NCBI GenBank assembly: GCA_022736495.1
Contig: DZCR01000067.1
Location: 1-16,639, forward strand
DNA length: 16,639 nt
Reading direction: 5' to 3'
DNA from: Desulfobacca acetoxidans
GTDB taxonomy: Bacteria; Desulfobacterota; Desulfobaccia; Desulfobaccales; 0-14-0-80-60-11
Shown in pieces: positions 774-16,639 of this stretch. Each line of letters opens with the position of its first letter. The stretch's first letter is position 1. The notes under the pieces are model-generated. The model saw only the letters and a list, made by a program, of their open reading frames with translations, ran no database searches and was not told the DNA's origin. Position numbers and translations under genes: made by a program.

Positions 774-836
774 TCTATATATCGAAATATAATAATCACC
801 TGTCGAAGGGCATAATCGGCAGAGCAATCCCCCCTA

Positions 837-857
837 CCCCCCTTTCAAAAAGGGGGG
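837..857 (+). repeat. C6T3/A3G6 hairpin between rpsB and tsf
   Basis: Six C and three T (837-845), a CAA loop and three A and six G (849-857) form a perfect 9-bp stem. It sits in the 170-base gap between rpsB and tsf. No run of T follows, so it is not a standard intrinsic terminator. It may weaken read-through or protect the rpsB message. Similar C-run/G-run hairpins recur between genes in many bacteria, so a dispersed repeat is the alternative. The rest of the gap holds a TATAAT (788-793) with no convincing -35 box, and the tsf ribosome binding site. Confidence 0.55.
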
Positions 858-943
858 AACTTGTTGAATCCGCCTTTTTCACACGATGGGAGACTCAATC
901 CCTCAAGGGCTCAATATGTTTAGGGGAATAAGGAGACACGACG

Positions 944-1804: not shown

Positions 1805-1816
1805 GGCAGGGGCCGT

Positions 1817-2554
1817 ATGGCGCCGGAGATTGTTAAATACCGCCGCATCCTGCTCAAGGTGAGCGGCGAAAGCCTGGCCGGGGAGAAGAAATTCGGATTG
1901 GACCCCGCCACCCTGAAGGCCATCGCCCTGGAGATCAAGGGCGTGGTGGACCTGAAAGTGGAAGTCGGCGTGGTAGTGGGCGGCGGCAATATCTTCCGGG
2001 GGCTGGAGGCCAGCACCCAGGGGATCGATCGGGCCGTAGCCGATAACATGGGCATGCTGGCCACCGTCATCAATGCCCTGGCCGTGCAGGACGCCCTGGA
2101 AAAAGTCGGCGTGCCCACCCGGGTGATGAGTGCCATCACCATGAATGAGGTGGCGGAGCCCTATATCCGCCGCCGGGCCATGCGTCACCTGGAAAAAGGC
2201 CGGATCGTGGTGTTCGGGGCCGGCACTGGCAGCCCCTACTTCACCACGGATACCGCCGCAGCCTTGCGGGCTACCGAGATCGGGGCCGAGGCTATCCTCA
2301 AAGGCACCCGGGTGGCGGGCATCTACGACCGGGACCCGGAAAAAGACGGCCGGGCTCAAATGATCCGCCGCCTCACCTATTTCGACGTTCTGGAAAAATC
2401 CCTCCGGGTCATGGACAGCACCGCCATCACCATGGCCATGGAGCAGCATATCCCGATCATCGTCTTCAAAATGCTGGAGCCGGGAAATATGAGAAAAGTG
2501 GTGCTCGGAGAGGCGGTGGGCACCATCGTGGAGAAGCGCGCCGATGAAAGATGA
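1817..2554 (+). CDS. pyrH: UMP kinase (uridylate kinase)
   Basis: UMP kinase converts UMP and ATP to UDP and ADP, feeding UTP and CTP synthesis. It belongs to the amino-acid kinase fold and is normally hexameric. Visible marks are [11 protein letters not shown] near the start (phosphate binding), [11 protein letters not shown] around residue 55, [20 protein letters not shown], and the C-terminal [20 protein letters not shown] and [10 protein letters not shown] segments that bind nucleotide. Its 245 residues are the usual length. The ATG at 1817 has GCAGGGG just upstream and follows the tsf stop by 12 bases. Its end overlaps the frr start by 11 bases, so translation of the two is likely coupled. 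Confidence 0.98.
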
Positions 2555-3101
2555 GGTCCTCGCCGAAACCAAACGTAAAATGGACAAAGTCCTGGAAGCC
2601 ATGGCCCGGGACCTCTCCCGGGTGCGTACCGGGCGGGCCTCCGTGGCCCTGCTGGAAGGCATCAAGGTGGAATGCTACGGCACGACCATGCCCCTGTCCC
2701 AGGTGGCTTCCCTGGCCGCGCCGGAGAGCCGGCTGCTCACCATTCAGCCCTGGGATACCTCCGTCATGGGGGATATCGAAAAGGCCATCCTCAAATCCGA
2801 CCTGGGCCTGAACCCCGCCAACGACGGCAAGATCATCCGTCTGCCCATTCCGGCCCTCACCACCGAACGCCGGAAAGAACTGGTGAAAATGGTGAAGAAG
2901 ATGGAGGAGGAGGCCAAGGTGGCCTTACGGAACGTCCGGCGGGAAGCCAACGAGGATTTCAAAGAGATGAAGAAAGAAAAACTCCTGGCCGAGGACGACG
3001 CCCACCGGGGCACCGAAGAAGTCCAGAAGATTACGGATGACTTTATCAAGAAAGCGGAAGCCCAGGGAACCGACAAGGAAAAGGAGATCATGTCCTTCTG
3101 A
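2544..3101 (+). CDS. frr: Ribosome recycling factor
   Basis: RRF splits post-termination ribosomes together with EF-G. The 185-residue protein is full length and nearly all alignable by eye to the family. It has the first helix with [17 protein letters not shown], the small domain with [15 protein letters not shown] and [20 protein letters not shown], and the long charged helices with [14 protein letters not shown] through the C-terminus. The ATG at 2544 lies inside the last codons of pyrH (11-base overlap), which explains the lack of a separate spacer and implies coupled translation. An 80-base gap separates it from uppS. Confidence 0.98.
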
Positions 3102-3181
3102 AGACAGTTTTCGGTTTTCGGTGAGAAATTCTTGGATTATAGTCTGCACTACATGCCGGCATCTAGAGCCGGAGGACCTTA

Positions 3182-3952
3182 TTGACTGAATATTCCATGC
3201 CTCAAGACCCTGGCAAACTCCCCCGCCACGTGGCCATCATCATGGATGGCAATGGCCGTTGGGCCCAGCGCCGGGGGCTGATGCGCGTTCGGGGCCACGT
3301 GGCCGGTATAGAGTCGGTGCGGGTGGTGACCCGCCTGGCCCGCAAGCTGGGCATTTCTTATCTCACCCTGTTTGCCTTTTCCGAAGAAAACTGGCAGCGC
3401 CCCGCCAGGGAAATCCGGGTATTGATGGCCCTGATGCGGAGCTATCTGCACCGGGAATTGGCGGAGATGCGGGACAACCAGATTGCCCTCAAGGCTATCG
3501 GCAATCTGAAACAATTGCCTGATAAGGTGTTGCGGGATCTGGAGCAGACCATCGCCGCCACCGCGGATGGCGCCCGGATGGTCCTGACCCTGGCCGTGAG
3601 TTACGGCGGGCGCAGCGAAATCCTCCATGCGGTTAAGACCCTGGCCCAGGACCTGATCGCCGGACGCCTCAAGCCCGAAGACATCGACGCCGCCCTGTTC
3701 TCCTGCTACCTCTACACTGCCGGGATGCCAGACCCGGACCTCCTTATCCGCACCAGCGGCGAATATCGCCTGAGCAACTTTCTCCTCTGGCAGTCGGCCT
3801 ACACCGAACTCTACGTCACCGACACCCTCTGGCCCGACTTCCGGGAAGACGACTTTCTCAAGGCCCTGGAATCCTATCAGAACCGGGACCGCCGCTTCGG
3901 CCTCACCCAGGCGCAGATCGAGGCCCTGAACGCCTCGGAGCCGCGGCATTAG
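3182..3952 (+). CDS. uppS: Isoprenyl (undecaprenyl) diphosphate synthase, UppS type
   Basis: This cis-prenyltransferase adds isopentenyl diphosphate units to farnesyl diphosphate to give the C55 carrier for peptidoglycan and O-antigen. Family marks are HVAIIMDGNGRWAQRRG near the N-terminus, with the catalytic Asp in MDGN, then the LTLFAFSEENWQRP motif, and the C-terminal DLLIRTSGEYRLSNFLLWQ followed by SAYTELY. Length (256 residues) is normal. The start is taken as TTG at 3182 because GGAGG (3171-3175) is 6 bases away. The ATG at 3197, five codons further on, would leave a 21-base gap. cdsA and dxr, common next genes in Gram-negative bacteria, do not follow. Confidence 0.97.
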   Translation: MTEYSMPQDPGKLPRHVAIIMDGNGRWAQRRGLMRVRGHVAGIESVRVVTRLARKLGISYLTLFAFSEENWQRPAREIRVLMALMRSYLHRELAEMRDNQIALKAIGNLKQLPDKVLRDLEQTIAATADGARMVLTLAVSYGGRSEILHAVKTLAQDLIAGRLKPEDIDAALFSCYLYTAGMPDPDLLIRTSGEYRLSNFLLWQSAYTELYVTDTLWPDFREDDFLKALESYQNRDRRFGLTQAQIEALNASEPRH

Positions 3953-3961
3953 GGAAGAATC

Positions 3962-4007
3962 TTTGGGGAAGGGGCCAGGGACGAAAGCCCCTGCCCCCTT
4001 CCCCAAA
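3962..4007 (+). terminator. Long GC-rich hairpin after uppS, possible transcript end
   Basis: Arms 3962-3980 and 3989-4007 pair at 18 of 19 positions (one C-C mismatch, 3975/3994) around an 8-base loop, beginning 9 bases after the uppS stop. The stem is very stable but is followed by C-rich sequence instead of a T run. It is therefore not a classical intrinsic terminator. It could be a 3' end stabiliser, a Rho-associated stop or a repeat-family copy. The position favours a role at the end of the rpsB-uppS transcript. Confidence 0.5.
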
Positions 4008-4112
4008 CCCCTTCCCCCCCCGTAAAAATATGGAGGGGGCGCACCGTGCACCTTCAGGGATTCCTCTACTTCCCGGCCTTTTCATCAATATTATGTTGCA
4101 ATCAAACAGTAT

Positions 4113-4155
4113 AGGCGTCTCGCCTGTGCGATCGCTGGCTAAAGCCTGCGACTAC
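4113..4155. repeat. Cluster of short palindromes, dispersed-repeat-like
   Basis: Three small palindromes lie end to end: AGGCG/CGCCT with a 3-base loop (4113-4125), the 8-mer GCGATCGC (4128-4135), and GGCT-AA-AGCC (4137-4146), followed by TGCGACTACC. Such short palindromic words are typical of intergenic repeat families. This is judged by eye from one copy. The wider gene-free stretch 3953-4275 otherwise holds only the hairpin after uppS and the region before the next gene. Confidence 0.35.
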
Positions 4156-4200
4156 CAATTATTTCTTTAAACGCCTAGAGGTATTACCCTGCAAAGGCAC

Positions 4201-4240
4201 TTGACAAGAGAAAGGGCCATTATTACTTTTACTTGTAAAA
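4201..4240 (+). promoter_or_regulatory. Candidate promoter and palindromic operator ahead of the DUF4331 gene
   Basis: A perfect -35 box TTGACA is at 4201-4206. A 17-base spacer gives only a weak -10 candidate, TACTTT at 4224-4229. Overlapping this and the expected start of transcription is a perfect palindrome, TTTTAC-TT-GTAAAA (4227-4240), well placed for a repressor. The surrounding 60 bases are clearly more AT-rich than the genes. The promoter assignment rests mainly on the -35 box; the palindrome is seen directly. Confidence 0.35.
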
Positions 4241-4275
4241 ATAGCTAATACACTATATTGCGTAAGGAGACCATC

Positions 4276-5319
4276 ATGTCGAACCACTTCACCGGCCTGA
4301 AGCTTGGCCCTCCCGAAGGGGATACCCGACTAGACCTCACCGATCTCTATGCCTTCCAGGCACCGGCGGACGCATCGCGCTCCGTAATAATCCTCAACTG
4401 CAATTCGTTCGTCCAGGAGGCTGAATTCCATCCCGACGCCGTCTACCGGATCAATATCGATAACAACGGTGACGCCGAAACCGAGCTCGCCTTCATCCTG
4501 GTGTTCTCCAAGCCGCACGACGGGCGGCAGCAGGCCACCGTCTACCTGGCCACCGGTTCCGACGCCCGTCAGGCTGAGCCTGCCGGGGAGGTGATCTTCA
4601 AAGACGTCGAGGTGTCTTTCGGGCCCGAACCGCATATCCACAAGTCAGGCCCCTACACCTGTTTCCTCGGACTGCGCAGCGACGCCTTCTTCATCGATTT
4701 CGCCGGCATCCTGAGAATGTTCCACTACCGGGACGGCAACAACTTCACAAACTTCACCAGCCTCGAGGGCGCGCCGGACCCGAGCCGCTGGACCGGCAAA
4801 GACCTTTTTGCGAACTATAACGTCTTCAGCATGGCCTTTGAGCTCCCGACGCAAATGCTCGGCGCCAACCCCGCGGTGCGCATCTGGGGGCGAGTCAGCA
4901 TCCGGCGTGACGGCCAGTTGATTCCTGTCGATCGCTCCGGTCACCCGACCTTCGCGAATTTCTTCTTCACCGACGAGATCAAACCGGTATTCAACCAGAG
5001 CGAGCCGGCTCATGACCTGGAGCGCTTCCTCGAGCCTGCCATCCACTCGTTAGAGCACGTCGGGGGCTACTCCCGCGCCGAGGCCAAAGCCCTGGTCGAG
5101 GCCCAGGGGGTTCTGCCCGACATGCTGAGCTTCAACCCCAGCAAGCCCGGCGGTTACCCTAACGGCCGCCTGCTTACCGACCACATCGTGGCGCACCGCC
5201 TCGCCATGCTCTCAAATGGCAAGATCCCGCCCGACGGGCTTAAGCCCCACACCGACCTCCTCAAAGTTTTCCCCTACCTCGGCACCCCGCACGCGCACCC
5301 CGACCCGCCCCCCGCGTAA
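4276..5319 (+). CDS. DUF4331 family protein
   Basis: This 347-residue protein resembles the DUF4331 family, whose biochemical role is unknown. Shared features are RLDLTDLYAFQAP near residue 20, the DAVYRINIDNNGDAETELAF block around residues 54-73, and the C-terminal YPNGRLLTDHIVAHRLAML and FPYLGTPH motifs. Many family members have an export signal and an ASHREAP-like N-terminus. Here the N-terminus, MSNHFTGLKLGPPEGDTR, has no hydrophobic segment, so the protein is probably cytoplasmic. The ATG at 4276 is chosen over the TTG at 4258 because TAAGGAG (4263-4269) is 6 bases before it. It stands alone, with its own candidate promoter and a terminator downstream. It breaks the uppS-cdsA synteny, so recent insertion is possible. 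Confidence 0.8.
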   Translation: MSNHFTGLKLGPPEGDTRLDLTDLYAFQAPADASRSVIILNCNSFVQEAEFHPDAVYRINIDNNGDAETELAFILVFSKPHDGRQQATVYLATGSDARQAEPAGEVIFKDVEVSFGPEPHIHKSGPYTCFLGLRSDAFFIDFAGILRMFHYRDGNNFTNFTSLEGAPDPSRWTGKDLFANYNVFSMAFELPTQMLGANPAVRIWGRVSIRRDGQLIPVDRSGHPTFANFFFTDEIKPVFNQSEPAHDLERFLEPAIHSLEHVGGYSRAEAKALVEAQGVLPDMLSFNPSKPGGYPNGRLLTDHIVAHRLAMLSNGKIPPDGLKPHTDLLKVFPYLGTPHAHPDPPPA

Positions 5320-5420
5320 GAGGGCTAGTAGTCCGTGTGAGGTGCCCGCCATCGCTGCGGCGCAACCCATGACTCACATCGAAGGCTTCACCCCAGAGAC
5401 GCAGAGGGCACAGAAAAATG

Positions 5421-5450
5421 TAGGGTGGGCATTGCCCACCTTATTTTTTT
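5421..5450 (+). terminator. Intrinsic terminator
   Basis: A 10-bp stem (5421-5430 with 5434-5443, one G-T pair) closes a 3-base ATT loop and is followed by seven T (5444-5450), the classic form of a Rho-independent terminator. It would end transcription about 100 bases after the DUF4331 gene. The stem word GGGTGGGC and the preceding ACGCAGAGGGCACAG string look like common intergenic repeat sequence, so the terminator may have come from a dispersed repeat. Confidence 0.75.
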
Positions 5451-5517
5451 GTGCATATACTGCCAAGGGTATCATTCGCGACAAACCGTGTCGTAATAGC
5501 ACAGGGAGATGAAAGCA

Positions 5518-5673
5518 ATGCGGTTAAGGTTAGTGGTCTCTTGGACGTTGGGCTTTCTGCTCCTAACCCTATTTGCTGCGTTGCCGCAAGCGGCGCTGGA
5601 GCTGACCGCGAGCCAGGTCTACGAGCAAGTTAAAGACTCGGTAGTGCTTGAATTGCAGCCAGGCTCCGGTTGA
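5518..5673 (+). pseudogene. Truncated N-terminus of a secreted trypsin/HtrA-like serine protease
   Basis: A short reading frame begins at ATG 5518, with GGGAG (5504-5508) 9 bases upstream, and stops at TGA 5671-5673 after 51 residues. Residues 1-26 are a clear signal peptide: two Arg, a hydrophobic core GFLLLTLFAAL, and a PQAAL cleavage region. The mature part starts TASQVYEQVKDSVVLEL, which matches the opening of periplasmic S1C/HtrA-type proteases (usually YEKVKDSVV followed by the beta-barrel protease domain). No catalytic His, Asp or Ser region follows; eight bases later the PIN toxin gene ends on the other strand. I read it as the stub of a disrupted protease gene. A short secreted peptide is possible but less likely. 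Confidence 0.6.
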
Positions 5674-5681
5674 AGCTTAGT

Positions 5682-6107
5682 TCACCTGGGGGAAATGGCC
5701 ATTCCGATGAGGTCGATAAAATCCCTCGGGGTTATGATCTGGGTGCCATGAAACTTCTTAAGAGGGAAATGCCTGGTATTGCCCGTAATGAGGTAATCCG
5801 CCTGGGATTCCAAGGCGCATTCCAGAAACTTGTTATCAGCCGGATCGCGGCTCAGATTCAACGGAATACGGGGGAAAATCCATAACGCCTGCTCCTTGAT
5901 CACCCATAAAAGTTTTTCGATGCTTGCCAGGTCAAGTCCCAGAAATTTTTTCCGCCTCAGGACCCCCCGGTACTCCTGCCAGATTGGTTCGCTCAAACAT
6001 ACGGTAAGGGACCCTTCTAAACATAACGCCAGAATGAGAGCCGGATTGCTCTCCGCTTTCAGGAAAGCTGAAATGATCACGTTGGTGTCAAGAATGACCT
6101 TGGGCAT
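5682..6107 (-). CDS. PIN-domain toxin of a type II toxin-antitoxin pair
   Basis: PIN-domain toxins are Mg-dependent RNases that cut specific RNAs when the antitoxin is lost. The 141-residue protein shows the family's acidic residues: Asp7 in VILDTNVIISAF, a Glu at 40 or 45 in LSEPIWQEY, Asp88 and Asp91 in SRDPADNKFLECAL, and Asp104 in ADYLITGN. It resembles the COG1569 / TIGR00305 putative-toxin group. It starts at ATG 6107, 12 bases after the antitoxin gene, with no strong ribosome binding site, which suggests translation coupled to the antitoxin. Its end lies eight bases from the truncated protease stub, so the module may have landed in that gene. Confidence 0.85.
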   Translation of the reverse strand: MPKVILDTNVIISAFLKAESNPALILALCLEGSLTVCLSEPIWQEYRGVLRRKKFLGLDLASIEKLLWVIKEQALWIFPRIPLNLSRDPADNKFLECALESQADYLITGNTRHFPLKKFHGTQIITPRDFIDLIGMAISPR

Positions 6108-6119
6108 AGGAAGATCACA

Positions 6120-6413
6120 TTATGTTTTGTTGGCCTTCCGGTATGAGGCGATTTCAGCGTCAATCTCGGCCTCGGTGATCTTATTTAGTCCCGCCGCTTG
6201 GGCGCTTAGCTGGATTCTCGTCAGGAGTTCCGGCTGCTTGACCACATTCGTAAGATAATCTCGCACGCTCATAATCACCACTTTGGCTTTACCTCGCCGA
6301 CTCACCACAAACCGCACCTGGTCGGCGTCCACTTCGTCCATAAGCTCGCCAAAGCGGGTGCGGGCGGTGAGGGCGTCAATTAATTTAGTTATGGATTTGG
6401 CCCCGGATTCCAC
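6120..6413 (-). CDS. Phd/YefM-family antitoxin
   Basis: The 97-residue protein has the Phd/YefM N-terminal DNA-binding pattern: ALTARTRFGELMDEVDADQ followed by RFVVSRRGKAKVVIMSVRDYL. The C-terminal part, with EAEIDAEIASYRKANK, would wrap the toxin. Its start is GTG at 6413, supported by AAGGAGG (6419-6425) five bases upstream. Gene order is antitoxin then toxin, as usual, and both would be transcribed from the promoter at 6457-6484. A palindrome overlapping that promoter's -10 box fits the autorepression known for this family. Confidence 0.87.
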   Translation of the reverse strand: MESGAKSITKLIDALTARTRFGELMDEVDADQVRFVVSRRGKAKVVIMSVRDYLTNVVKQPELLTRIQLSAQAAGLNKITEAEIDAEIASYRKANKT

Positions 6414-6431
6414 GTTTACCTCCTTCTAAAC

Positions 6432-6484
6432 CATGATTTAACTCATTAGTTAATCCATGATAACAGAGTCCACGAATTTGTCAA
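6432..6484 (-). promoter_or_regulatory. Promoter and operator of the toxin-antitoxin pair
   Basis: Read leftward, TTGACA (6484-6479) is a consensus -35 box, and 16 bases on is TATCAT (6462-6457), one mismatch from the consensus -10. An imperfect palindrome covers 6432-6459: two 12-base arms matching at 10 positions, with outer CATG and inner TTAACT, around a 4-base spacer. It overlaps the -10 box and the expected start of transcription, an ideal repressor position. The -35 box contains the TGA stop of uvrC, so the two genes share sequence. Confidence 0.65.
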
Positions 6485-8331
6485 ATTAACTCCCCACCCC
6501 CCGCCAGCCACTCTTTCAAGCTCTCTGCGATCTTCTGATTAAAGCCCGGCAGGGCCGCCAATTCTTCGGCCTTAGCGGTCTTCATTGCCTCGATATTGGC
6601 GAAATGTTCCAGCAGCCGCCGCTTGCGCACCGGGCCGATGCCCGGCGCGGCATCCAGGGCCGAGGCCAGCATTTCCTTCCGGGCCCGCTTGCGGTGGTAG
6701 GTGATGGCGAAGCGGTGCGTTTCATCCCGCAGGCGCAGCAGCAAAAGCCAGCCCGGGGCGTTGGCCGGAGGAAACAGGGGGTTTTTGCGGCCCGGCAGAA
6801 ATAGGCGGTCCCGGACCGGGCGGCCGCCCTGTTCGGTAGCCTTGGCTAGGCCGACCACCTGAATTTTGGCCAGTCCCATCTCCTTAAGCGTCTGGGTGAC
6901 CACGTTTAACTGGCCCCGGCCGCCATCCACCACCAGCAGGTCCGGCAATTCCTGCCCTGCCTTGCCGTAGTGGCGGCCAACCACCTCCCGCAACATGGCA
7001 TAGTCGTCCTGGCCCTCTACCTCCCTGATCTTGAAGCGGCGGTAGCGGGATTTATCCGGCATCCCGTCAGTGAAGGCCACCAACGCCCCCACCGGCTGCT
7101 CCCCCTGGAGGGTGGAAATGTCCAGGCACTCCAGGCGGGCGGGCGGCTGGGGGAGATGCAAGCGATTGTGCAAATCCAGCAGGGCCGCACCGGGCTCAGG
7201 CGGCGTGGTGCGCCGCCTCAGCGCCTCTCTGGCATTGTCCGCGGCCATGGCCAGCAGCCGGGCCTGCTCGCCGCCGGGGGCCACCAATAGGCGCACCTTT
7301 GAGCCTTTTTCTTCACTGAACAGGGCCGCAAGGAGCTGGTGATCCGGAACCGCAACAGGCAGGAGCAACTCTTCCGGCAAGGGCCGGCCCTGGGCGTAAT
7401 ATTGTCTGAGGAAGGCTCCCAGCAGATCGCCGTCCAGGGGCAGTTTCGAAAAAAAGTATTCCCGGCTGCCGGTGACCAGGCCGGCCCGGACCACAAGGAC
7501 TACAATGACGGCCTGCCCCGCGTCTTCCGCCAGACCCAGGACGTCCTGGTCCTTGAAATTGGGCCGGGCCATGTCCTGGCGCTCCAGGGTCTGGGTAATG
7601 GCCTGGATGCGGTCCCGCAGGAGCGCGGCCCGCTCGAAATCCAGGTCGGCGGCGGCCAGTTCCATCTGCGCCTTGAGCCTTTTGAGCAGCCCTTTACCCG
7701 TGCCCTTGAGGAAGAGCACGGCTTCCTGCACCGCCTGGAGGTAGGCGGCGTCGCTGACACACCCGGCGCAGGGCCCCAGGCAATGGGCCAACTGATACTC
7801 CAGACAGGGGCGGGAGCGGGGCGCCAGGCGCCGCTCCTTACAGGTGCGCACCCCAAAAGCCTGCTTCATGACCTTCAGGGTCTCCCGGGCCATGCCCGCG
7901 GAGGCATAGGGGCCGAAATAGAGGGCGCCGTCAGGGTTAAAGCGCCGCACAAACCGAAGCGCGGGGTAGCTCTCCTTGAGGTCCAGGCGCAGGCAGAGAT
8001 AATTTTTGTCATCCCTGAGCATGACGTTGTAGCGGGGCCGGTGCTCCTTGATGAGGTTGCGCTCCAGGATGAGGGCTTCCCGACCCGTGGGGGTGAGGAT
8101 CACGTCCACCCGGGCCATTTTCTGCAACATCAGCGCGGTCTTGGGATCATGTCGTTCTGGGGTTTTGAGGTAAGAAAGCAGGCGGTTTTTCAGGTTCACC
8201 GCCTTGCCCACGTAGAGCACCTTGCCGTTTGCATCCTTGAACAGATAGACGCCGCTGCCTTGGGGGATATTGGGCATGGCTGCGGCCAGCGCCGGATATG
8301 GCGCCGCGGGCTTTACATCGGGCTTTTGCAT
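6481..8331 (-). CDS. uvrC: UvrABC system protein C (excinuclease subunit)
   Basis: UvrC makes both incisions around a DNA lesion in nucleotide excision repair after loading by UvrB. From the ATG at 8331 it has 616 residues, normal for the family. The N-terminal GIY-YIG nuclease spans about residues 25-105 (GVYLFKD, KVLYVGKAVNLKNR). A Cys cluster (164, 176, 184, 188, 191) can hold the Fe-S cluster. The UvrB-binding UVR helix pair is at about 212-247. The RNase H-like nuclease has Asp404 in LDIS, Asp469 in VVDGG and His539 in THRFA. Two helix-hairpin-helix motifs lie at about 557-608. A GTG at 8361 would add ten residues but sits inside a perfect palindrome, so I prefer the ATG. It is divergent from the aldo/keto reductase gene. 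Confidence 0.97.
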   Translation of the reverse strand: MQKPDVKPAAPYPALAAAMPNIPQGSGVYLFKDANGKVLYVGKAVNLKNRLLSYLKTPERHDPKTALMLQKMARVDVILTPTGREALILERNLIKEHRPRYNVMLRDDKNYLCLRLDLKESYPALRFVRRFNPDGALYFGPYASAGMARETLKVMKQAFGVRTCKERRLAPRSRPCLEYQLAHCLGPCAGCVSDAAYLQAVQEAVLFLKGTGKGLLKRLKAQMELAAADLDFERAALLRDRIQAITQTLERQDMARPNFKDQDVLGLAEDAGQAVIVVLVVRAGLVTGSREYFFSKLPLDGDLLGAFLRQYYAQGRPLPEELLLPVAVPDHQLLAALFSEEKGSKVRLLVAPGGEQARLLAMAADNAREALRRRTTPPEPGAALLDLHNRLHLPQPPARLECLDISTLQGEQPVGALVAFTDGMPDKSRYRRFKIREVEGQDDYAMLREVVGRHYGKAGQELPDLLVVDGGRGQLNVVTQTLKEMGLAKIQVVGLAKATEQGGRPVRDRLFLPGRKNPLFPPANAPGWLLLLRLRDETHRFAITYHRKRARKEMLASALDAAPGIGPVRKRRLLEHFANIEAMKTAKAEELAALPGFNQKIAESLKEWLAGGGELI

Positions 8332-8355
8332 CTTATCTTTAGGATAACAGGCGGC

Positions 8356-8379
8356 TCCCACCTGTCAAGACAGGTGGGA
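8356..8379. promoter_or_regulatory. Perfect 24-bp palindrome between divergent uvrC and reductase genes
   Basis: Two perfect 11-base arms (8356-8366 and 8369-8379; arm TCCCACCTGTC) flank an AA centre, lying 24 bases before the uvrC ATG and 31 bases before the reductase ATG. It could be an operator shared by both genes or, in either transcript, a hairpin near the start codon. I do not recognise it as a known LexA box or other named site. Confidence 0.5.
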
Positions 8380-8410
8380 AAAGGCCGGCCCTGCAAGAAG
8401 GAGAAGGATA

Positions 8411-9247
8411 ATGACCATACCCCAGAGAACCCTGGGAAGAACCGGCTATTCCGCTACGATTTTGGGCCTGGGCGGCGAAGGCGTGTTGCGTACCTTTAAC
8501 CAGGAGCGTGAGGCTCAGGCGGTCATCGAGGCCGCGCTGGCGGAAGGGATCAATTACTTCGAGACGGCCCGGGCCTACTCCGGCAGCGAATCTTACCTGG
8601 GTCCCAACCTCAAAGGGCACCGAGATAAAATCTTCCTGACCAGCAAATCCCACGGCCGCTCCTTTAAGGAGGCCATGGCCCACCTGACCATCACCCTGAA
8701 AAACCTCGACACCGATTACCTGGACCTATGGCAGGCCCACGATATCCGCACCATGGACGAAGTTGAGGCCTTGGGCGCGCCGGGCGGGGCCCTGGAGGCT
8801 CTTCACCATGCCCGGGACCGGGGCTGGGTGCGGTTCATCGGTATCACCGGTCACCACGACCCGGCGGTGCTGCGCCGGGCTTTAGAGCTGTACGAGTTTG
8901 ATACCATACTGCTGCCGGTGAACCCGGCGGAGCCGCATCACGCCAGTTTTCTGCCCCTGGCCCAGGAGGCCATGGACAAGGGCATGGGGGTCATCGCCAT
9001 GAAAACCCTGTGCCGGGGCCAACTCCCCCAACTCGCTGAGGACCCCGATGCCATCATCGGAGAGTTGCTGGCCTATGCCTGGAGCCATCCCGTCAGCCTG
9101 GCGGTGGTTGGGGCCGACTCCCACACTCAGGTACGACAGTTGGCCGCCGCAGCCCGGAACTTCATCCCCATGACCCCGGAGGAACAGCAGGCCCTGGAAG
9201 AGGCCGTGGACCCCATAGCCCGGCAGTTGATGTATTACAAGCCTTAG
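8411..9247 (+). CDS. Aldo/keto reductase family oxidoreductase
   Basis: This 278-residue protein has the (beta/alpha)8 aldo/keto reductase pattern and probably uses NADPH to reduce a carbonyl; the substrate is unknown. Around the active site it has Tyr56 in ARAYSGSE, Lys79 in FLTSKSHGR and His110 in LDLWQAHD. The usual catalytic Asp position reads Glu51 (NYFETARAY instead of NYFDTA). The C-terminal part has the typical VGADSHTQVRQLAAA cofactor-binding helix, followed by EEQQALEEAVDPIA. It carries no C-terminal Cys motif, so it is not the ferredoxin-fused subgroup. ATG 8411 has AGAAGGAGAAGG directly upstream. It is monocistronic and divergent from uvrC across a palindrome. Confidence 0.88.
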   Translation: MTIPQRTLGRTGYSATILGLGGEGVLRTFNQEREAQAVIEAALAEGINYFETARAYSGSESYLGPNLKGHRDKIFLTSKSHGRSFKEAMAHLTITLKNLDTDYLDLWQAHDIRTMDEVEALGAPGGALEALHHARDRGWVRFIGITGHHDPAVLRRALELYEFDTILLPVNPAEPHHASFLPLAQEAMDKGMGVIAMKTLCRGQLPQLAEDPDAIIGELLAYAWSHPVSLAVVGADSHTQVRQLAAAARNFIPMTPEEQQALEEAVDPIARQLMYYKP

Positions 9248-9545
9248 GGCTAACTCCAGAATTAAACATCAAATGATAGAGCTTAAGCTGGCAACCTTCG
9301 AATCGAGATCAGATTAAATCTGGCATTGAGAGCAAAATTTAACAATTGCCATGGTCTGGAATGCCGTTATGATCAGCATGAACTAAACGCTTCGCGTGGT
9401 CGGTAAGCCGGGCGACTCTCTGGTTTAATCCAGCCTCTAGCGTAATCCTTCCTGCAGAAAAACTTACCGCCTTTCTTATCGTATCCCCAGATGGTTGCGT
9501 GTAGTTTCCTCCCATAGTGCGTTTAATCCAACCAGGAGGAAAACC
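9248..9545. other. Gene-free stretch before the recombinase remnant
   Basis: Nearly 300 bases with no convincing gene. The last 200 or so may be the non-coding lead of the mobile element whose recombinase starts at 9546. An 88-codon frame on the minus strand (9605-9339, GTG start) covers it but lies antisense to the recombinase start and resembles no family I know, so I do not call it. A further 100 bases after the remnant (9606-9706) are AT-rich and also empty. Confidence 0.4.
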
Positions 9546-9605
9546 ATGGGAAAGCTCCACGATCAGATGCAGGAGGATTGACTCCTCAAGGCCTACAGCC
9601 CTCAC
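9546..9605 (+). pseudogene. Remnant of a tyrosine recombinase (integrase) gene start
   Basis: From ATG 9546, with AGGAGG at 9534-9539 six bases upstream, the sequence reads MGKLHDQMQED, stop, LLKAYSPHAR. Tyrosine recombinases often open this way (KLHDQM, then a D-L-x-L-K-x-YSPxT stretch), the N-terminal SAM-like core-binding domain. The in-frame TGA at 9579-9581 sits where Leu is expected, and after about 20 codons the similarity ends. No catalytic Arg-His-Arg-Tyr part remains in the window. The intact ribosome site plus an early stop point to a dead gene truncated by deletion. Confidence 0.55.
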
Positions 9606-9706
9606 GCGAGATCAAGCTTGTTATTCTGCCGTACTCGTCTGCAATTGAATCCATGTGTTCTGAATTTTTTATTAAACTTTTCCAAACCCTAGTTCCTGAA
9701 CCCCCC

Positions 9707-11701
9707 TTATTTCCTGTTTAAGACATAAGCGGCCTGAGATTCTTCGAGCCGGGGGTTATCCAAACGTTTTTGGCAGCGCTTCAGAAAGACTCGGGCCGGG
9801 GGGTCCTCGTGATACAAATCCAATATCTCAAAAAAGCGGCTGGCGGCTTCCGCGATTTTGCCCTCCTTGAAAGCGGCCCGACCCGCCTCAAACAAGGGTA
9901 GCCAAGCCGGGGGGCCATCTATGGGCGCGAGACCGAGTAACTCGTAAACCGTAACTGGTTGAGCCCGGCCCTGGACCTGCACCAGATCCAATTCCCGCAC
10001 CAGAAAAGTGTTCCCCAAGCGCCGGTAGGTGGCTTCGCTCAACATGATTTCTGTGCCGTAAAATTTATTGGCTTGTTCAAGCCGGGCGGCCAGATTCACC
10101 GTATCTCCCATGACCGTGTAATTGAAACGCTTTTTCGAGCCGATATTGCCGGCCACGACTGGACCGGTATGCAAGCCGACACGGGCTGCGATGTGGGGGA
10201 ATCCTTGGGACTCCCAGGACTCCTGAAGTGGCCGCAGGGCCGCCTGCATTTCCAGGGCCGCCCGGCAGGCCAGGACCGCGTGGTCGGCCAGGGGCAACGG
10301 CGCGCCCCAAAAAGCCATGATGGCGTCTCCGATAAATTTGTCCACGGTACCCTGGCGGGCCAGAATGATTTCCGTCATGGTGGAGAAATACTCATTGAGC
10401 AAGCGAATCATTTCCTTAGGAGCGGTGTTTTCGGCCATGGAGCTGAAGCCCACCAGATCGGCGAACAGCACGGTGGCTTCCACTTCCTCGCCGCCTAGCT
10501 GGAGGCGCTCCGGATTGTTGATGATGGTGTCAACCAGGGATTCCGAGACATATTGTCCGAAGGCTTGACGCAGCCAGCGCTTTTCCCGGGATTCGATCCA
10601 ATAGTGGGCAAAGATATTGCCGGCATAGACCACCACCAGCGCCCCCGAGAGGAGTACCGGCGGCCACCACAGGTTCAGATGCAGAAACAGATAAAATGAG
10701 AGCCCGAAGGTGAGCAGTATGAACCCCGCTAGCACGCCCAGGGCGGCCACGGGCGAAACCCGTCCCACCAGGCAGCCAAACGGTAGTAGTACCGCCAAGT
10801 AAAGCCCGAGCCGGGGGAGGACGCCCAACTCCGTTCCCCAATTTTGTTGCAGAAGGGTGTGGATCACCTGACCATGAATCTCCACCCCGGACATGAGCTT
10901 ACCGGTGTTGGCAAAGAAGGGGGTGTAAAAAGCGTCGGCGATGGGAGTTGGCGCGGCCCCTACAATCCGGCCGATGAGGACGATTTTGCCGCGGATGGCT
11001 TCAGCCAAATAAGGGGCCGGCCCCTCTAAGGCCCGGCTGTAAGAAACGGTGTCGATGTGTCCGGGCGGTCCGGTGAAATTAATAAGCCTGCAGAGGCGGG
11101 GGGGGATAACTTGATGGGGATGATAGGCATGAACGACTACTTCCGGGAGGGTTGCGATATTGCCAAGATGACAATAAAAACGCCGCACAATGCCGTCGCC
11201 GTCCGGGGTTACCAGCGTCAGACCCAGACCCAGGGCCGCATGACGGAACGGTTCATACGGGTGCACGAAAATCTGGCTGGCGGCCCGGGCGCTCTCGCTG
11301 AATTCCATGGTAGTGGCCAGGATGACGTTTCCCGCCGCTTGCATGGCCTCGGTAAATACTTGGTCATCCGCCGGATTGGTTGGCTCGGCAAACAGGACGT
11401 CGAAAACGATGAGGCGCGCCCCCGCGGCGTTAAGTTTGTTTATGATTTTAGCGTGATAGCTGCGTGGCCAGGGCCAGGCGGTCCTGAGTTCCTGAAAAGA
11501 ATGCTCATCGATGCCGACGATGAGGATCATCGGCGGCGGTGCCGAGTGAGGTCTGAGGCGATAGCACAGGTCCAGAGCATGGTTTTCCAGGATCTGCCCC
11601 ACCTGGAGATGACTCATGACCGCCAAGGCCGCGAAGACCACCAGGCTGAGGCAGCATATCCTCAACCGGGGTGACTTCAGAATGTTAAAAATAGAGGCCA
11701 A
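9707..11701 (-). CDS. CHASE2-domain class III adenylate cyclase, membrane-bound
   Basis: This likely makes cAMP from ATP in response to an envelope signal. Numbered from a TTG at 11701 (664 residues): a membrane helix at 14-31, a periplasmic CHASE2 sensor at about 38-283 (VGIDEHSF, GVEIHGQVIHTLL), three more membrane helices at 295-365, and a cyclase domain at about 403-588. The cyclase has both metal Asp residues (415 in LFADLVGF, 459 in FIGDAIMAF), Lys455 and Asp533 for adenine, and Asn536 and Arg540 in the transition-state motif, so it should be active and ATP-specific. A TPR-like helical tail follows. There is no ATG at the start. TTG 11701 follows GGAGG (11715-11719) at a long 13-base spacing and overlaps the preceding gene by 17 bases; TTG 11797 is the alternative. 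Confidence 0.93.
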   Translation of the reverse strand: MASIFNILKSPRLRICCLSLVVFAALAVMSHLQVGQILENHALDLCYRLRPHSAPPPMILIVGIDEHSFQELRTAWPWPRSYHAKIINKLNAAGARLIVFDVLFAEPTNPADDQVFTEAMQAAGNVILATTMEFSESARAASQIFVHPYEPFRHAALGLGLTLVTPDGDGIVRRFYCHLGNIATLPEVVVHAYHPHQVIPPRLCRLINFTGPPGHIDTVSYSRALEGPAPYLAEAIRGKIVLIGRIVGAAPTPIADAFYTPFFANTGKLMSGVEIHGQVIHTLLQQNWGTELGVLPRLGLYLAVLLPFGCLVGRVSPVAALGVLAGFILLTFGLSFYLFLHLNLWWPPVLLSGALVVVYAGNIFAHYWIESREKRWLRQAFGQYVSESLVDTIINNPERLQLGGEEVEATVLFADLVGFSSMAENTAPKEMIRLLNEYFSTMTEIILARQGTVDKFIGDAIMAFWGAPLPLADHAVLACRAALEMQAALRPLQESWESQGFPHIAARVGLHTGPVVAGNIGSKKRFNYTVMGDTVNLAARLEQANKFYGTEIMLSEATYRRLGNTFLVRELDLVQVQGRAQPVTVYELLGLAPIDGPPAWLPLFEAGRAAFKEGKIAEAASRFFEILDLYHEDPPARVFLKRCQKRLDNPRLEESQAAYVLNRK

Positions 11702-14700
11702 GTCTGAATAAGAACCTCCGGTTTGTGGAAAATTCAATAACCCGGTTCGGTTCCGGAGAGTAAAACGGGGTGCGGTTGAAGAGGTTCTGGACTTCAAAAA
11801 GCGCGAAGCCCCGCTTGTTGGGGAACTCCCGGCCCAGGGTTATGTTCATGATCACAAAAGGGTTATTCGCTTCATGGCCGGGGATTTTGCCAAATTGCTG
11901 TACCAAAAACGGCCTCAGCCTGGCCAGCCACCCCTGCCGGCTCCGATAAGCCAGGCCCAGAAAGGCGTTAAATTCGGCATAATCCTCTAACCCGGGCTGG
12001 AAAGATAAATCCGGCACCACTCGTTTGCCTATCACCCCCAGGGACAGGCCCAGAGAAGGGGTGAGAATGCGGTTCAAGACCAGGGAGGCCTGGTAGCGCT
12101 TCCAATTCTGCCAAACTCCATTAGTTGATCCGTTAGCGTCGGTTATCAGGTTCGGAGTAGCCACTCGCAGGGCATTCAGGCGCAAGGCGGTGAAGGTTTT
12201 GGCGTTCCATTGCGATTCCCAGGCCACCCCGGCCTGCCGCACCTCCGAGCCCGAATTCACATTGATGGCCCAGGGGAAGCTGGCGATCTCCGAGTTCACC
12301 AGGAGAGGCTGGGTAACCAGATGAGTCGTCAGGTGACGTTCCAACGCCAGTCGCAAAGTGTGCTGGGTGTCCTGGATCCGGAACTGGTAATTGGCCCCGA
12401 AGCGCGGGCTCCACTGCGAAGTGTAGATGGTTCTTGCGTAACCAAATCGGTCCGTCTTGTTAAAGTCTTTGAAAAGGCCCAATTCCAGCACCAAGTTCGG
12501 ACGCAGACGCCAATAATCCAGGAGATAAAAACTAGAAGATCGGAACGGCGGCTGGAAATCGAATTGGCTTGTGAATACCTGGGTCTGTTTAAAACCGGGG
12601 ATGAAAGCAGAAAAATCCAGAATGGCTATCGTGGTCTGATTCAGTCTCTGACTAATGCTGCTGGAAAAATAATCGAAGCCGCCGATCAGATTGTGCTGGC
12701 CCAAAACCAGGTTACTTTGTAATTGCACGTTGTTGAATTCCTGGTCAGAAGCTCCGCCTGCCAAGGTTTGCAGCGAAACCGGGAAGGACCCAAAGCCCAG
12801 GTCCATGTTAAAGTTACTCTGAGAAGGCATGGATACATGCACAGGGAATTCTTGGTGGGCGTAATAGGCCAGCAAGCCTATTTTGGGGTTAAAGCGGTAA
12901 TAATAGGCCGCCTCGTATAGGCGGCCGCGCGCATTCAGATTTTGGGACCCGGTAAAGAACACCGGGCCTAATTGATCAGTCTGATTGATTAATTGCTGGC
13001 TGGTAACCTTTTGCTCAAAATATTGGAACAGGCCGGTGAAGGTCCCCTGGACCGTGGGCGCCCATTTGGCCGCGGCCTCGATACTGGACAAACGGCTCGT
13101 GCCGTTGAAGGCATTGAAACTGGCGTCCGGCGGCGGCGGCACCCCCCGGGTGTCGGAGTAGCGCCCGAAGGTCTCAAACGCCGCGCCGGGAACGCCGCCG
13201 TAAGCCAAACCCTGGTGGTCCTGGATGGACTTGCGGCCCTCCGAAACCCCGATGCCCCCCATAGCCCCCAGGCGAGCGTAAGGCATTTCAAACATGGGGG
13301 TATAATCGTGGGTCAAGCCCAGAGCTTCGGTGCCTTGGAATTGGAGGCTGCTGAAAGTAGCCTGGTTCGCCGGGGAGAGCACCCGGTACAGGGTCCCCTC
13401 GATGCGTTCGCTGGGTGCGAGCAGGCCGGTAGTAAGGAAGGGGGCTTCAGAACCGGTCCGCAGGACGTCCCGCAGGAACAGGTGGGCCGAACTGTCATAG
13501 GGCTTATACTTGACGGCTGTGACCGCCTTGCTGTAGGCCCAATCAGTCAACCCCAACTGCTGGTAGGCCCGGGCCAGGCTGTAGTTGCGCACGGCCCGGT
13601 CCTGGTCCAGCAAGCTGCGGGACCGGAACATGGCCACGTTGTCGTTCAACTCGATGGACTTATTGATCTCCTGGACGGCTTCCCCCGGACGGTTAAGGTC
13701 GGTAAGTGCGATGCCCTTATAAAAATACGGGGAGGGGTCCTTGGGGTCCAGGGTCTTGGCATAGTCATAAACCTCCAGGGCCCGGTCAAAGGAGTGCGTC
13801 TGAAAAAGCGCCTTGCCCAACTCGGTCTGGTAAGAGGCTATCCGGGGGTCAAGCAGCGTGGCGGTGAGCATCTCCTCCAGCCCGCGTTGGAACTCCCGGT
13901 AGCGGAACGAGTAAATGGCCAGCCCCAGGTGAGGCTCCCCCAAGTTCGGGTCTCTTTCCAGAGCCTGGTTCCAGAACTGAAAAGCCCGGCTATAGTCCCG
14001 GAAGGCCAGGCGGACGAAGCCGGCCAAACTGAGCACCTGGGGATTGCCGGGAGCCATTTGCAGAGCCTGGTTAATGGTCCGCTGCGCCCGGGAGAGATAC
14101 CCGGACCCCAGCCAGATTTTAGCCAGATACACATAGGCGATAACAAAGCGGGGCTCCGCAGCGATGGCCTGTTCCAGGTACCGGGTGGCCGCAGGCAGCT
14201 CGAAGGAGGCCAGTTTCACCAGCCCCATGGTAAAAAGCGCCAGGGGTGAGTTAGGGGCCTGGGCCAGGGCCTGGGCCGCCTCTGCCTGGGCCGCAGCTTT
14301 GCGGTTCTGGACCAGGTCGATCTGGGCCAGTAACGGCCGGGCCAGCCAGGGGGCCGGGGGCGGCAGCGCTGCGGCCGTCTGCAACCGGGACCGGGCTTCC
14401 TCAACCCTCCCGTCCAGCAGTGCGGCATAGCCGGACATGGCTACCAGCAGAGGCGAAGGTCGGCCCCGGATGCTTGCCGCCTTGATAAGCTCGTAGGCTT
14501 TGGTTGCGCTCCCAAGGTTTTCCAGGGCCAGGGCCTGGCCCACCACAGTCAGGTCATCGGGCTGGCGTACCCGGCGGAAGTACGTTAAGGCCTCGCGGGG
14601 CTGGTTTTCCCGGAGGTTCACCCAACCCAGCAGGGTCAGGGCCCGGGAATTTTCTGGGTCTTTGGCCAGAACCGTTTCGGCCTTTCCCCGGGCTTCCTTA

Positions 14701-15479
14701 AGGCGGCCCTGGTCATAGGCGGCCTCTCCTGCCTGGATTAACGCGGACCCCACCGCAGGTCCGTAAGGGGCGCGGTGTTCCCCGGGAAGAGGGGTCAGGG
14801 GAAGGTCACGGTAGCTGATGATACCTGGATAATAGAGCACCCATTGGACCGCGTCCGCGGGTTGGACCAAAACCCGTTTGGCCGGCTTGCGCCCCGGGAC
14901 CGCGTAGCCTTCTTCCCCCGGACGGAGGCAGACCTCCCCCTGGGGGTTGGCGATACAGACGTTGCCTTCCAGCAAGATGACGCTGGTGGCGCCATTGCGC
15001 TGGACCTTAATATTCAGCTCCGTGCCCCTGATGATGGCAGTGATCGCCGGGGTCTCCAGTTCGAAGCGAAATTTTTCATGTTTGTTCCGCAGCCAGATCT
15101 CCCCCTCGGGGACCTCATAGCGGCTGGCGGGCGGAGGCTCCCCTTTGACCGGGGTCACCGGCTTCAGCCGGGGAGAGGGGGCGATACTTTTGAGTATTAC
15201 GACGGTATTTTCATTGAGTTTGATCTGGCTTTCGTCCACGCAGAGGATAGAGGCGGCGGAGGCGGGTCCGGTGCGCACCGCATCGCCGGCCAGCAGGGCC
15301 TGCCCCACCTCGGCCGGCACCCATTGGCTGGTAGTGCTGCGGCGGACTGACACTTCACCTTTGGCCGCCACCAGTTTGCCCACCGGGGTCTGTTCGGCCA
15401 TGGCCATAAGGAGGTCAGGCAGGAATAACCAGATGCCAACCGCCAGAATCAGTCCGGCAAGCCACCATGGGCGCCGCAT
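11685..15479 (-). CDS. FecR-TPR-outer-membrane beta-barrel protein
   Basis: A 1264-residue exported protein with three parts. A signal peptide occupies about residues 1-28. A FecR-type domain follows at about 33-200 (GDAVRTGPASAASILC, TAIIRGTELNIKV, EGNVCIANPQGEVCLRPGEEG), which in known cases relays envelope signals. TPR helices run from about 245 to 660 (for example GEAAYDQGRLKEA, PEAVQE-like and YFYKGIALTDLNRPGEA repeats), probably for protein contacts in the periplasm. From about 690 to the end it is rich in alternating aromatic beta-strands and closes FNRTPFY...FLFRLGLYF with a terminal Phe, like outer-membrane barrels and TonB-dependent receptors. The ATG at 15479 has GGGAGG (15486-15491) upstream. 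It is 18 bases after the small upstream gene and overlaps the cyclase gene. Its ligand is unknown. Confidence 0.88.
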   Translation of the reverse strand: MRRPWWLAGLILAVGIWLFLPDLLMAMAEQTPVGKLVAAKGEVSVRRSTTSQWVPAEVGQALLAGDAVRTGPASAASILCVDESQIKLNENTVVILKSIAPSPRLKPVTPVKGEPPPASRYEVPEGEIWLRNKHEKFRFELETPAITAIIRGTELNIKVQRNGATSVILLEGNVCIANPQGEVCLRPGEEGYAVPGRKPAKRVLVQPADAVQWVLYYPGIISYRDLPLTPLPGEHRAPYGPAVGSALIQAGEAAYDQGRLKEARGKAETVLAKDPENSRALTLLGWVNLRENQPREALTYFRRVRQPDDLTVVGQALALENLGSATKAYELIKAASIRGRPSPLLVAMSGYAALLDGRVEEARSRLQTAAALPPPAPWLARPLLAQIDLVQNRKAAAQAEAAQALAQAPNSPLALFTMGLVKLASFELPAATRYLEQAIAAEPRFVIAYVYLAKIWLGSGYLSRAQRTINQALQMAPGNPQVLSLAGFVRLAFRDYSRAFQFWNQALERDPNLGEPHLGLAIYSFRYREFQRGLEEMLTATLLDPRIASYQTELGKALFQTHSFDRALEVYDYAKTLDPKDPSPYFYKGIALTDLNRPGEAVQEINKSIELNDNVAMFRSRSLLDQDRAVRNYSLARAYQQLGLTDWAYSKAVTAVKYKPYDSSAHLFLRDVLRTGSEAPFLTTGLLAPSERIEGTLYRVLSPANQATFSSLQFQGTEALGLTHDYTPMFEMPYARLGAMGGIGVSEGRKSIQDHQGLAYGGVPGAAFETFGRYSDTRGVPPPPDASFNAFNGTSRLSSIEAAAKWAPTVQGTFTGLFQYFEQKVTSQQLINQTDQLGPVFFTGSQNLNARGRLYEAAYYYRFNPKIGLLAYYAHQEFPVHVSMPSQSNFNMDLGFGSFPVSLQTLAGGASDQEFNNVQLQSNLVLGQHNLIGGFDYFSSSISQRLNQTTIAILDFSAFIPGFKQTQVFTSQFDFQPPFRSSSFYLLDYWRLRPNLVLELGLFKDFNKTDRFGYARTIYTSQWSPRFGANYQFRIQDTQHTLRLALERHLTTHLVTQPLLVNSEIASFPWAINVNSGSEVRQAGVAWESQWNAKTFTALRLNALRVATPNLITDANGSTNGVWQNWKRYQASLVLNRILTPSLGLSLGVIGKRVVPDLSFQPGLEDYAEFNAFLGLAYRSRQGWLARLRPFLVQQFGKIPGHEANNPFVIMNITLGREFPNKRGFALFEVQNLFNRTPFYSPEPNRVIEFSTNRRFLFRLGLYF

Positions 15480-15497
15480 ATTCCGCCTCCCGCGTCT

Positions 15498-15986
15498 TTA
15501 ACGTATCGGCGGCCAGGGAAATTTGATGATCGGGCTGCCGATCTGGTTTATCGTAGCACTCAGGGTAAGCTTGTTAAAGTAAGGCTTATCTCTTAGGACC
15601 AACGGCTCGATTGGGTCGAGCGGCGTTGTTTTTAATCGTTCGATTTCATCTTGTTCCATAGATCTTATAAATCCGCCCTCCCTGTACAGGGCAATGACTG
15701 CCTGGATGAGATTATCGGCCTGCTCCTCGCTTTCTAGCTGCCCTGGATACTTCCATAGCAACACCTGTCTAAGCAGAGGAATATCTAACTGCTGCAACAA
15801 CAACCGGAGGATAAAGCCCGTAGTCTTAGTGAGTTCACGATAGGCGTACCCTCCTTCTGCATTGCGCTTCGCCAAGAGGGGCGTTAGTACAGACCCTGTA
15901 TCCGTTTCCACTGCCTCTGGATCGGCGGTTTGAAGGAATACGCAATCTTCTGTCAGACAATAAAATTCTTCATTATTTTCTACCAT
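15498..15986 (-). CDS. Hypothetical protein, first gene of the FecR-cyclase operon
   Basis: A 162-residue protein that I do not recognise. It begins MVENNEEFYCLTEDCVFLQ (a Cys pair five residues apart), is acidic at the N-terminus, and has a helical middle (GFILRLLLQQLDIPLLRQVLL, shown here only in part) and a basic, Pro-rich end, IKFPWPPIR. No signal peptide or membrane segment is visible, so it is probably cytoplasmic. The ATG at 15986 is chosen over an upstream in-frame ATG-less extension to 16169 because GGGAGGAAAG is 4 bases before it; the 61 extra residues of the longer frame are low-complexity and Arg-rich. It ends 18 bases before the FecR gene, so they are almost certainly co-transcribed. 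Confidence 0.7.
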   Translation of the reverse strand: MVENNEEFYCLTEDCVFLQTADPEAVETDTGSVLTPLLAKRNAEGGYAYRELTKTTGFILRLLLQQLDIPLLRQVLLWKYPGQLESEEQADNLIQAVIALYREGGFIRSMEQDEIERLKTTPLDPIEPLVLRDKPYFNKLTLSATINQIGSPIIKFPWPPIR

Positions 15987-16284
15987 GGTGCTTTCCTCCC
16001 TCAGAATTTCGCCTCCGTCAGGTGGCGGGATAGTGCGACCGGCGCAACGGCCAGATCGGCTAAGTGAACGGAAGGGGAGGGAGGGCTGCTTACCGGCTTT
16101 CGGCCACCCCAGGCGGTCGTGGCCGTCTGGCCTCCTCCACCTTTGACGCGACGCGGCTCCACTCAACAACGCGTTGATGAAAACTCCAGACGAGACTCGT
16201 GATCGGAAGACGGTTAGAGAAGAGTAGGGTCAGATTTGTGTCCAGGTTAATCAAGGGCCACCCCCCCCGAAGGGTTTGAGCAAA

Positions 16285-16317
16285 GGCATCAGCCGAAACT
16301 TCGTTTTACCGGATGCC
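16285..16317. repeat. Hairpin with nested stem in the leader
   Basis: Outer arms GGCATC and GATGCC (16285-16290 and 16312-16317) enclose an inner stem AAAC/GTTT with a TTC loop. The internal sequence has partly complementary sides (GCCG and CGG-type). It lies in the operon leader, close to the transposase end, and could be an RNA structure or an insertion-sequence end. Confidence 0.35.
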
Positions 16318-16387
16318 TATTAAGCCTGGATAATGGGGAACGTAACGGTTCGTAAAAATAATGTTAATAATAAACTTTTATAGATCA

Positions 16388-16417
16388 ATTAAAGACTGAA
16401 ATGAGTAAAATTGTCAA
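16388..16417 (-). promoter_or_regulatory. Candidate promoter for the leftward operon
   Basis: Read leftward: TTGACA (16417-16412), 18 bases, then TTTAAT (16393-16388), one mismatch from consensus. It lies in an AT-rich block downstream of the transposase stop and would drive the three-gene operon. TGTCAA near an ISXO2/IS1595-type end may instead be part of that element's terminal repeat; the two readings are not exclusive. Confidence 0.35.
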
Positions 16418-16433
16418 GAAAAAAGCGCAGGAA

Positions 16434-16639
16434 TTAATTTAAAATTCTTGCCCCAGAGAAGATGCGATCAGTGAATCCAAAGATTTTTATTAATGGCCTC
16501 TTGACTCTGCTCAGCAGTTTTTGCCATAAGTTCATTTCGAGTAATAGTGCACAGATGTTGAGTAACCGATGGAAAGATTGACGATCCCAAAAACGGCGAT
16601 TAAATCGGTAGCACACTTCGGTCAGGTATCGTTGGAGAT
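16434..16639 (-). mobile_element. C-terminal end of an ISXO2/IS1595-type transposase, possibly frameshifted
   Basis: The frame enters from the right edge as LQRYLTEVCYRFNRRFWDRQ, followed by SFHRLLNIC. This is the C-terminal signature of ISXO2-like (IS1595 family) DDE transposases, usually YLdEfCYRFNRRFW. After NIC this frame runs to a stop at 16434-16436 with unfamiliar residues. In the neighbouring frame the next residues are CTITRNELMAKTAEQ with a stop at 16468-16470, resembling the usual TITYxEL ending. A small insertion or deletion near 16560 would explain this. The catalytic DDE part lies outside the window, so activity cannot be judged. Confidence 0.75.

Follow-up and report, generated by a model that had tools for sequence, protein, structure and literature searches.

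Three adjoining genes on the minus strand

The stretch analysed here (the window) comprises 16,639 nt of the Desulfobacca acetoxidans contig DZCR01000067.1 (assembly GCA_022736495.1), positions 1-16,639. Three minus-strand open reading frames (ORFs) lie at 9707..15986, as an earlier note on this DNA had observed, and they encode a 162-residue protein (P0121), a large protein with a FecR domain, a stack of tetratricopeptide repeats (TPR) and a predicted β-barrel, and a nucleotide cyclase with a CHASE2 sensor. We found that the large protein and the CHASE2 cyclase together form a further member of the NsrA-CyaK kind of receptor-cyclase pair studied in Sinorhizobium meliloti. In the sublineage to which the window belongs, the receptor gene is co-inherited with a protein having the fold of a RiPP recognition element (RRE; RiPP, ribosomally synthesized and post-translationally modified peptide) and/or with a radical S-adenosylmethionine (radical-SAM) enzyme. 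The coordinates of the features are given in Table 1.

Table 1. Features of the receptor-cyclase locus in the window
Feature	Positions	Strand	Basis
162-residue protein P0121, predicted PqqD/RRE fold (the "orphan" of the earlier note)	15498..15986	-	
Residues 137-162, the C-terminal tail of the RRE protein; predicted to be disordered, candidate modified peptide	15501..15578	-	model and alignment
1264-residue FecR-TPR-barrel protein, putative NsrA-type outer-membrane receptor	11685..15479	-	
FecR domain of the receptor, residues 66-174	14958..15284	-	PF04773, 2.8e-10
TPR stack of the receptor, about residues 246-618	13626..14744	-	several Pfam TPR families
Predicted TonB-dependent-receptor-type barrel, residues 735-1264	11688..13277	-	structure prediction and PDB matches
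CHASE2/class III nucleotide cyclase, CyaK-like	9707..11701	-	likely start TTG 11701
CHASE2 sensor domain of the cyclase	10787..11638	-	PF05226, 3.7e-47
Catalytic domain of the cyclase	9944..10480	-	PF00211, 3.7e-31

The AlphaFold2 model of receptor residues 655-1264, built with 27 sequences, had a mean predicted local distance difference test score (pLDDT) of 81.5 and a predicted template modelling score (pTM) of 0.80, and revealed 23 strands, with the barrel beginning at residue 735. A barrel was therefore predicted after residue 690, where the earlier note had expected one, and its absence was rejected. The top structure matches of the predicted barrel in the PDB were TonB-dependent receptors, the barrels of which have 22 strands. 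The segment preceding the barrel consists of the FecR and TPR parts, at the place where TonB-dependent receptors carry an N-terminal plug, and the Pfam scan found no plug family in the receptor. A protein search with the receptor (7997 candidates scored, E 0.001) returned 324 matches; 115 of the best 120 of these, the window's own protein counted, covered at least 97% of the query. Rarity of the FecR-TPR-barrel fusion was accordingly rejected, and the proposal that the fusion makes this copy unusual was not supported.

The Pfam scan assigned both a CHASE2 sensor and a catalytic domain to the cyclase. Inspection revealed the expected catalytic residues; the earlier note's statement that they are all present was thus borne out, and a cyclase missing its catalytic residues was rejected. 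The cyclase gene lies directly downstream of the receptor gene and, from its likely start, overlaps it by 17 nt, and the identical overlap was found in five related loci (L004, L019, L024, L030 and L032).

Similarity to NsrA-CyaK and recurrence of the pair

In tblastn searches against plasmids, the large protein matched the FecR part of nsrA on S. meliloti pSymB (18% of the query, 32% identity), and the cyclase matched cyaK over 96% of its length with about 33% identity. In the annotated S. meliloti record, nsrA (1200 residues) and cyaK overlap by 1 nt; NsrA contains a FecR domain at residues 66-160 and TPRs, and CyaK contains CHASE2 and cyclase domains. When each was searched as a single sequence, NsrA matched the receptor profile with an E-value of 1.1e-49, the bulk of the match being in the FecR part (96 bits) with smaller shares in the TPR part (34 bits) and the barrel (15.5 bits), and CyaK matched the cyclase profile with an E-value of 1.1e-128. 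The two loci are alike in that the gene of a FecR-TPR-barrel protein of similar length directly precedes, and overlaps, that of a CHASE2 cyclase, although the identity to the window proteins is low. In contrast to the window's sublineage, the nsrA-cyaK stretch has no RRE or radical-SAM gene among its 11 annotated features, and what is new compared with NsrA-CyaK is the RRE/radical-SAM module accompanying one receptor sublineage.

In the part of the source available, NsrA is described as a receptor of the outer membrane whose barrel spans residues 600-1200 (PMC7529298). The available parts of three reports describe CyaK as the cyclase paired with NsrA and indicate that plant-signal perception needs NsrA, the ribosomal protein uL2 being the candidate signal (PMC7529298; PMC13001267; PMC10463352). 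Two other S. meliloti genes, encoding a FecR domain and TPRs, respectively, are dispensable for this perception according to the accessible text of another report (PMC5498481).

The receptor was present in 16 of 29 genomes of the order, in 10 of 297 genomes of the wider phylum and in 10 of 199 Acidobacteriota genomes; the phylum searches scored just 2, 3, 7 or 12 candidates per genome, so their misses are soft. Receptor loci were collected from named genomes (23), the order (14), the wider phylum (6) and Acidobacteriota (9). The 54 locus rows were reduced to 50 by leaving out L033 (the same as L008), L028 (the same as L012), L047 (fetched via its cyclase) and the window; L035 and L036 are fragments, and L029 and L030, from one genome, may be one gene.

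Homologues of the receptor gene adjoin cyclase genes: the profile detected a CHASE2-type cyclase within 4 kb in 30 of the 50 loci, or in 27 without three doubtful cases, namely L013 (opposite strand, 2.8 kb upstream), L005 (a 52-residue piece at a contig end) and L036 (one 177-residue ORF matching both the receptor and cyclase profiles). The cyclase was downstream on the same strand in 25 of the 30. Seventeen genomes, together about 75 Mb, yielded 70 CHASE2 matches, from which we estimate that a cyclase would lie within 4 kb by chance at roughly 1% of loci. Among Acidobacteriota, the cyclase was adjacent in 10 of the 11 loci with enough sequence, the exception being L059; a twelfth locus (L021) is cut at a contig edge. 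The converse failed, as only one (L047) of 14 other CHASE2 places, hand-picked by us from the 70 matches, adjoined a full receptor relative. In L060, one of those ten Acidobacteriota loci, and in L047, the cyclase gene is upstream of the receptor gene, not downstream.

The RRE-fold protein and its radical-SAM partners

The structure model of P0121 revealed a winged-helix RRE fold, and relatives of the protein occur beside other receptors; the designation "orphan" was not upheld. Going by its predicted structure, P0121 appears to share its fold with proteins that assist peptide modification. P0121 itself did not match PF05402 (PqqD); its relative at 10329-10799 of L015 exceeded the cut-off (4.3e-7), and the two L003 copies (1.4e-4 and 4.2e-4) and the L018 protein (0.04) scored under it. 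Residues 138-162 had a pLDDT below 50 in the model. When segment limits of our own choice were applied to eight sequences, the mean pairwise identity was 0.62 in the tail, 0.52 in the core, 0.42 in the N-terminal part and 0.24 in the linker, making the tail the most conserved segment of the protein; we infer that the tail is most likely the peptide that gets modified. A separate precursor peptide was not recognised, small ORFs not having been systematically searched; the gene gaps in L003 are all at most 112 nt, and L010 has room for a short precursor gene.

Two RRE-family proteins (L003, 4490-5056; L018, 1890-2672) begin with an N-terminal signal that looks Sec-like on visual inspection or is Tat-like according to NCBIfam, and these sequences suggest that an RRE protein may be exported. 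In L037, an ORF at 6880-7628 between the receptor and radical-SAM genes resembled an RRE protein on visual inspection and ended in a different tail; the RRE profile missed it.

By profile, an RRE gene was present in 6 of the 50 receptor loci and a radical-SAM gene or piece in 9, with only a remnant or fragment in L015 and L019. The RRE relatives beside receptors adjoin radical-SAM genes, and the genes of these operons overlap or lie at most 280 nt apart. Seven radical-SAM proteins adjoining receptor genes have a CxxxCxxC motif and further invariant cysteines in common, and the receptor-adjacent enzymes match the peptide maturases SkfB (1.7e-14) and PqqE (2.5e-11), among other radical-SAM enzymes. 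With models built from those very loci, all seven radical-SAM matches (E 1e-50) and all seven RRE matches (E 1e-4) in the 29 genomes of the order were beside a receptor gene, each family occurring in 6 genomes; in the 297 phylum genomes, where again few candidates per genome were scored, each family was found in 3, all at already linked places.

In the receptor tree of 49 rows, from which L033, L028, L035, L036 and L047 were left out, the loci with an RRE or radical-SAM neighbour formed clades of six and four rows (branch labels 99 and 100, respectively). This grouping, which we set ourselves, also counts two loci with radical-SAM alone (L002 and L037), the L015 remnant and the L019 fragment. 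The window falls in the six-row clade, and five other rows of its 15-row clade have neither RRE nor radical-SAM. The profile detected no radical-SAM gene in the window, whose end on the upstream side of the RRE gene is only about 650 nt away from it. At this end (16437-16637, minus strand) is a 67-residue C-terminal ORF piece that looked transposase-like by eye and to which Pfam assigned no family. A short radical-SAM remnant lies between the RRE gene and the cyclase in L015 (10771-10980), and the enzyme seems to have been lost there.

The Pfam scans covered 13 of the 40 listed window ORFs (the likely genes) and one fragment. Within this set, no phosphodiesterase family was detected and no sigma factor or anti-sigma family either, which agrees, within the 16.6-kb window, with the claim that no sigma or anti-sigma gene is nearby. 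In the Rfam search of the window, nothing reached the gathering scores. Elsewhere in the window, a PIN-domain protein and a Phd/YefM antitoxin adjoin each other at 5682-6413 (minus strand), likely a toxin-antitoxin pair, and a DUF4331 protein (4258-5319, plus strand) is encoded downstream of the rpsB-tsf-pyrH-frr-uppS genes.

Proposed mechanism and alternatives

Taken as a whole, the locus is probably best explained as an NsrA-CyaK-type receptor-cyclase pair accompanied, in its sublineage, by an RRE and/or radical-SAM module that would make a modified peptide for the receptor. The first part of this explanation rests on the domains of the two proteins, on the barrel in the structure model, on the homology with NsrA and CyaK and on the repeated side-by-side occurrence of the genes. 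The large protein would be located in the outer membrane, where its barrel would sense something outside; its FecR and TPR parts would reach into the periplasm and, by contact, hand this state to the CHASE2 sensor, and the inner-membrane cyclase would then make cyclic AMP (cAMP). The RRE fold of the third protein hints that some receptors are tied to a modified peptide, which the RRE protein and the radical-SAM enzyme would make, most likely on the conserved RRE tail, and which may serve the receptor as ligand, cargo or regulator. A narrower version, for one lineage of NsrA-type receptors, is speculative and rather unlikely: the RRE tail, modified by the radical-SAM enzyme, would be a self-signal acting as ligand of, or key to, the outer-membrane receptor, and this receptor would in turn drive the CHASE2 cyclase. 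The interpretation in the earlier note is supported in part: its envelope-to-cAMP scheme fits the studied homologous pair NsrA-CyaK. On the other side, 20 of the 50 related receptor loci lack a cyclase within 4 kb. Four of these 20 loci end within 1.4 kb downstream, five have a radical-SAM gene (four of them also an RRE gene) and 11 have neither.

These same five loci (L001, L010, L018, L026 and L037) favour the possibility that the pair is NsrA-CyaK-like and the RRE protein, with or without a radical-SAM gene, is simply encoded nearby and does something else, for example producing a peptide or cofactor unrelated to cAMP. Many receptor loci conversely have a cyclase and neither RRE nor radical-SAM; the two modules are therefore separable. 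Nevertheless, at the thresholds used, neither small family turned up in the 29 genomes anywhere but beside a receptor gene, and they follow two receptor clades, the receptor being the shared element, so that we consider a mere neighbourhood possible but doubtful. Apart from RRE and radical-SAM themselves, it is the receptor gene that the loci with these two families share, as would be expected if the two proteins modified the receptor itself, in a barrel loop or the FecR/TPR part, and acted as a maturase rather than a ligand maker. However, comparison of 10 receptors of the RRE clades with 19 others revealed no private insert and only seven weakly distinctive columns, such that a receptor-specific insert as the radical-SAM target was not favoured, and it is the RRE tail that is strongly conserved; a maturase of the receptor is accordingly improbable. 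Finally, the barrel resembles TonB-dependent transporters, and the TPR part weakly matches the polymer exporters PgaA and BcsC, far under their cut-offs, which would suit a transporter or exporter of the modified peptide with a barrel and a periplasmic TPR arm, the cyclase sensing only traffic or envelope stress. This is improbable given the undetected plug and the description of the studied homologue NsrA as a receptor in the available parts of the reports (PMC7529298; PMC13001267).

The proposed receptor-cyclase pair with its peptide module was compared with other known systems. In Campylobacterota, a CHASE2 adenylate cyclase is clustered with a phosphodiesterase, a FecR outer-membrane protein and a TPR protein (PMC9239204). 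FecR and TPR parts are thus encoded together with a CHASE2 cyclase in both cases, but the accessible text of that report names them as separate proteins alongside the phosphodiesterase, whereas the window has one protein with a barrel. The Burkholderia FecR-CHASE2 histidine kinase operon similarly encodes a periplasmic FecR protein with a CHASE2 sensor; as far as the available part of the source goes, that operon signals through a histidine kinase and a response regulator, and its FecR protein has LysM instead of TPR and barrel (PMC5192318). The RRE fold of the 162-residue model and the maturase matches of the relatives' radical-SAM enzymes recall RiPP systems (lasso B1, PqqD, SkfB, PqqE and SuiB), which differ in that here the RRE protein has a conserved tail in place of a recognised separate precursor and the module accompanies a receptor. 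FecI-FecR-FecA surface signalling shares the FecR domain and the TonB-receptor-type barrel, but the window has no sigma factor among its scanned genes and no separate plug-bearing receptor, and the output is a cyclase. In a literature search, with most subscription papers out of reach, nothing was found that joins radical SAM with CHASE2, with FecR and PqqD, or with RRE and adenylate cyclase, or that joins FecR, TPR, β-barrel and adenylate cyclase.

The receptor-cyclase pair extends a signalling type of one plant symbiont to Desulfobacca relatives and Acidobacteriota. If the RRE and radical-SAM genes make a ligand or mature the receptor, they would connect RiPP chemistry with a cAMP signal that crosses the outer membrane, and would point to a specific candidate for the stimulus of a CHASE2 system. 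Were the modified tail itself the signal, the cell would be producing a RiPP-type peptide in order to signal to itself through a cAMP pathway.
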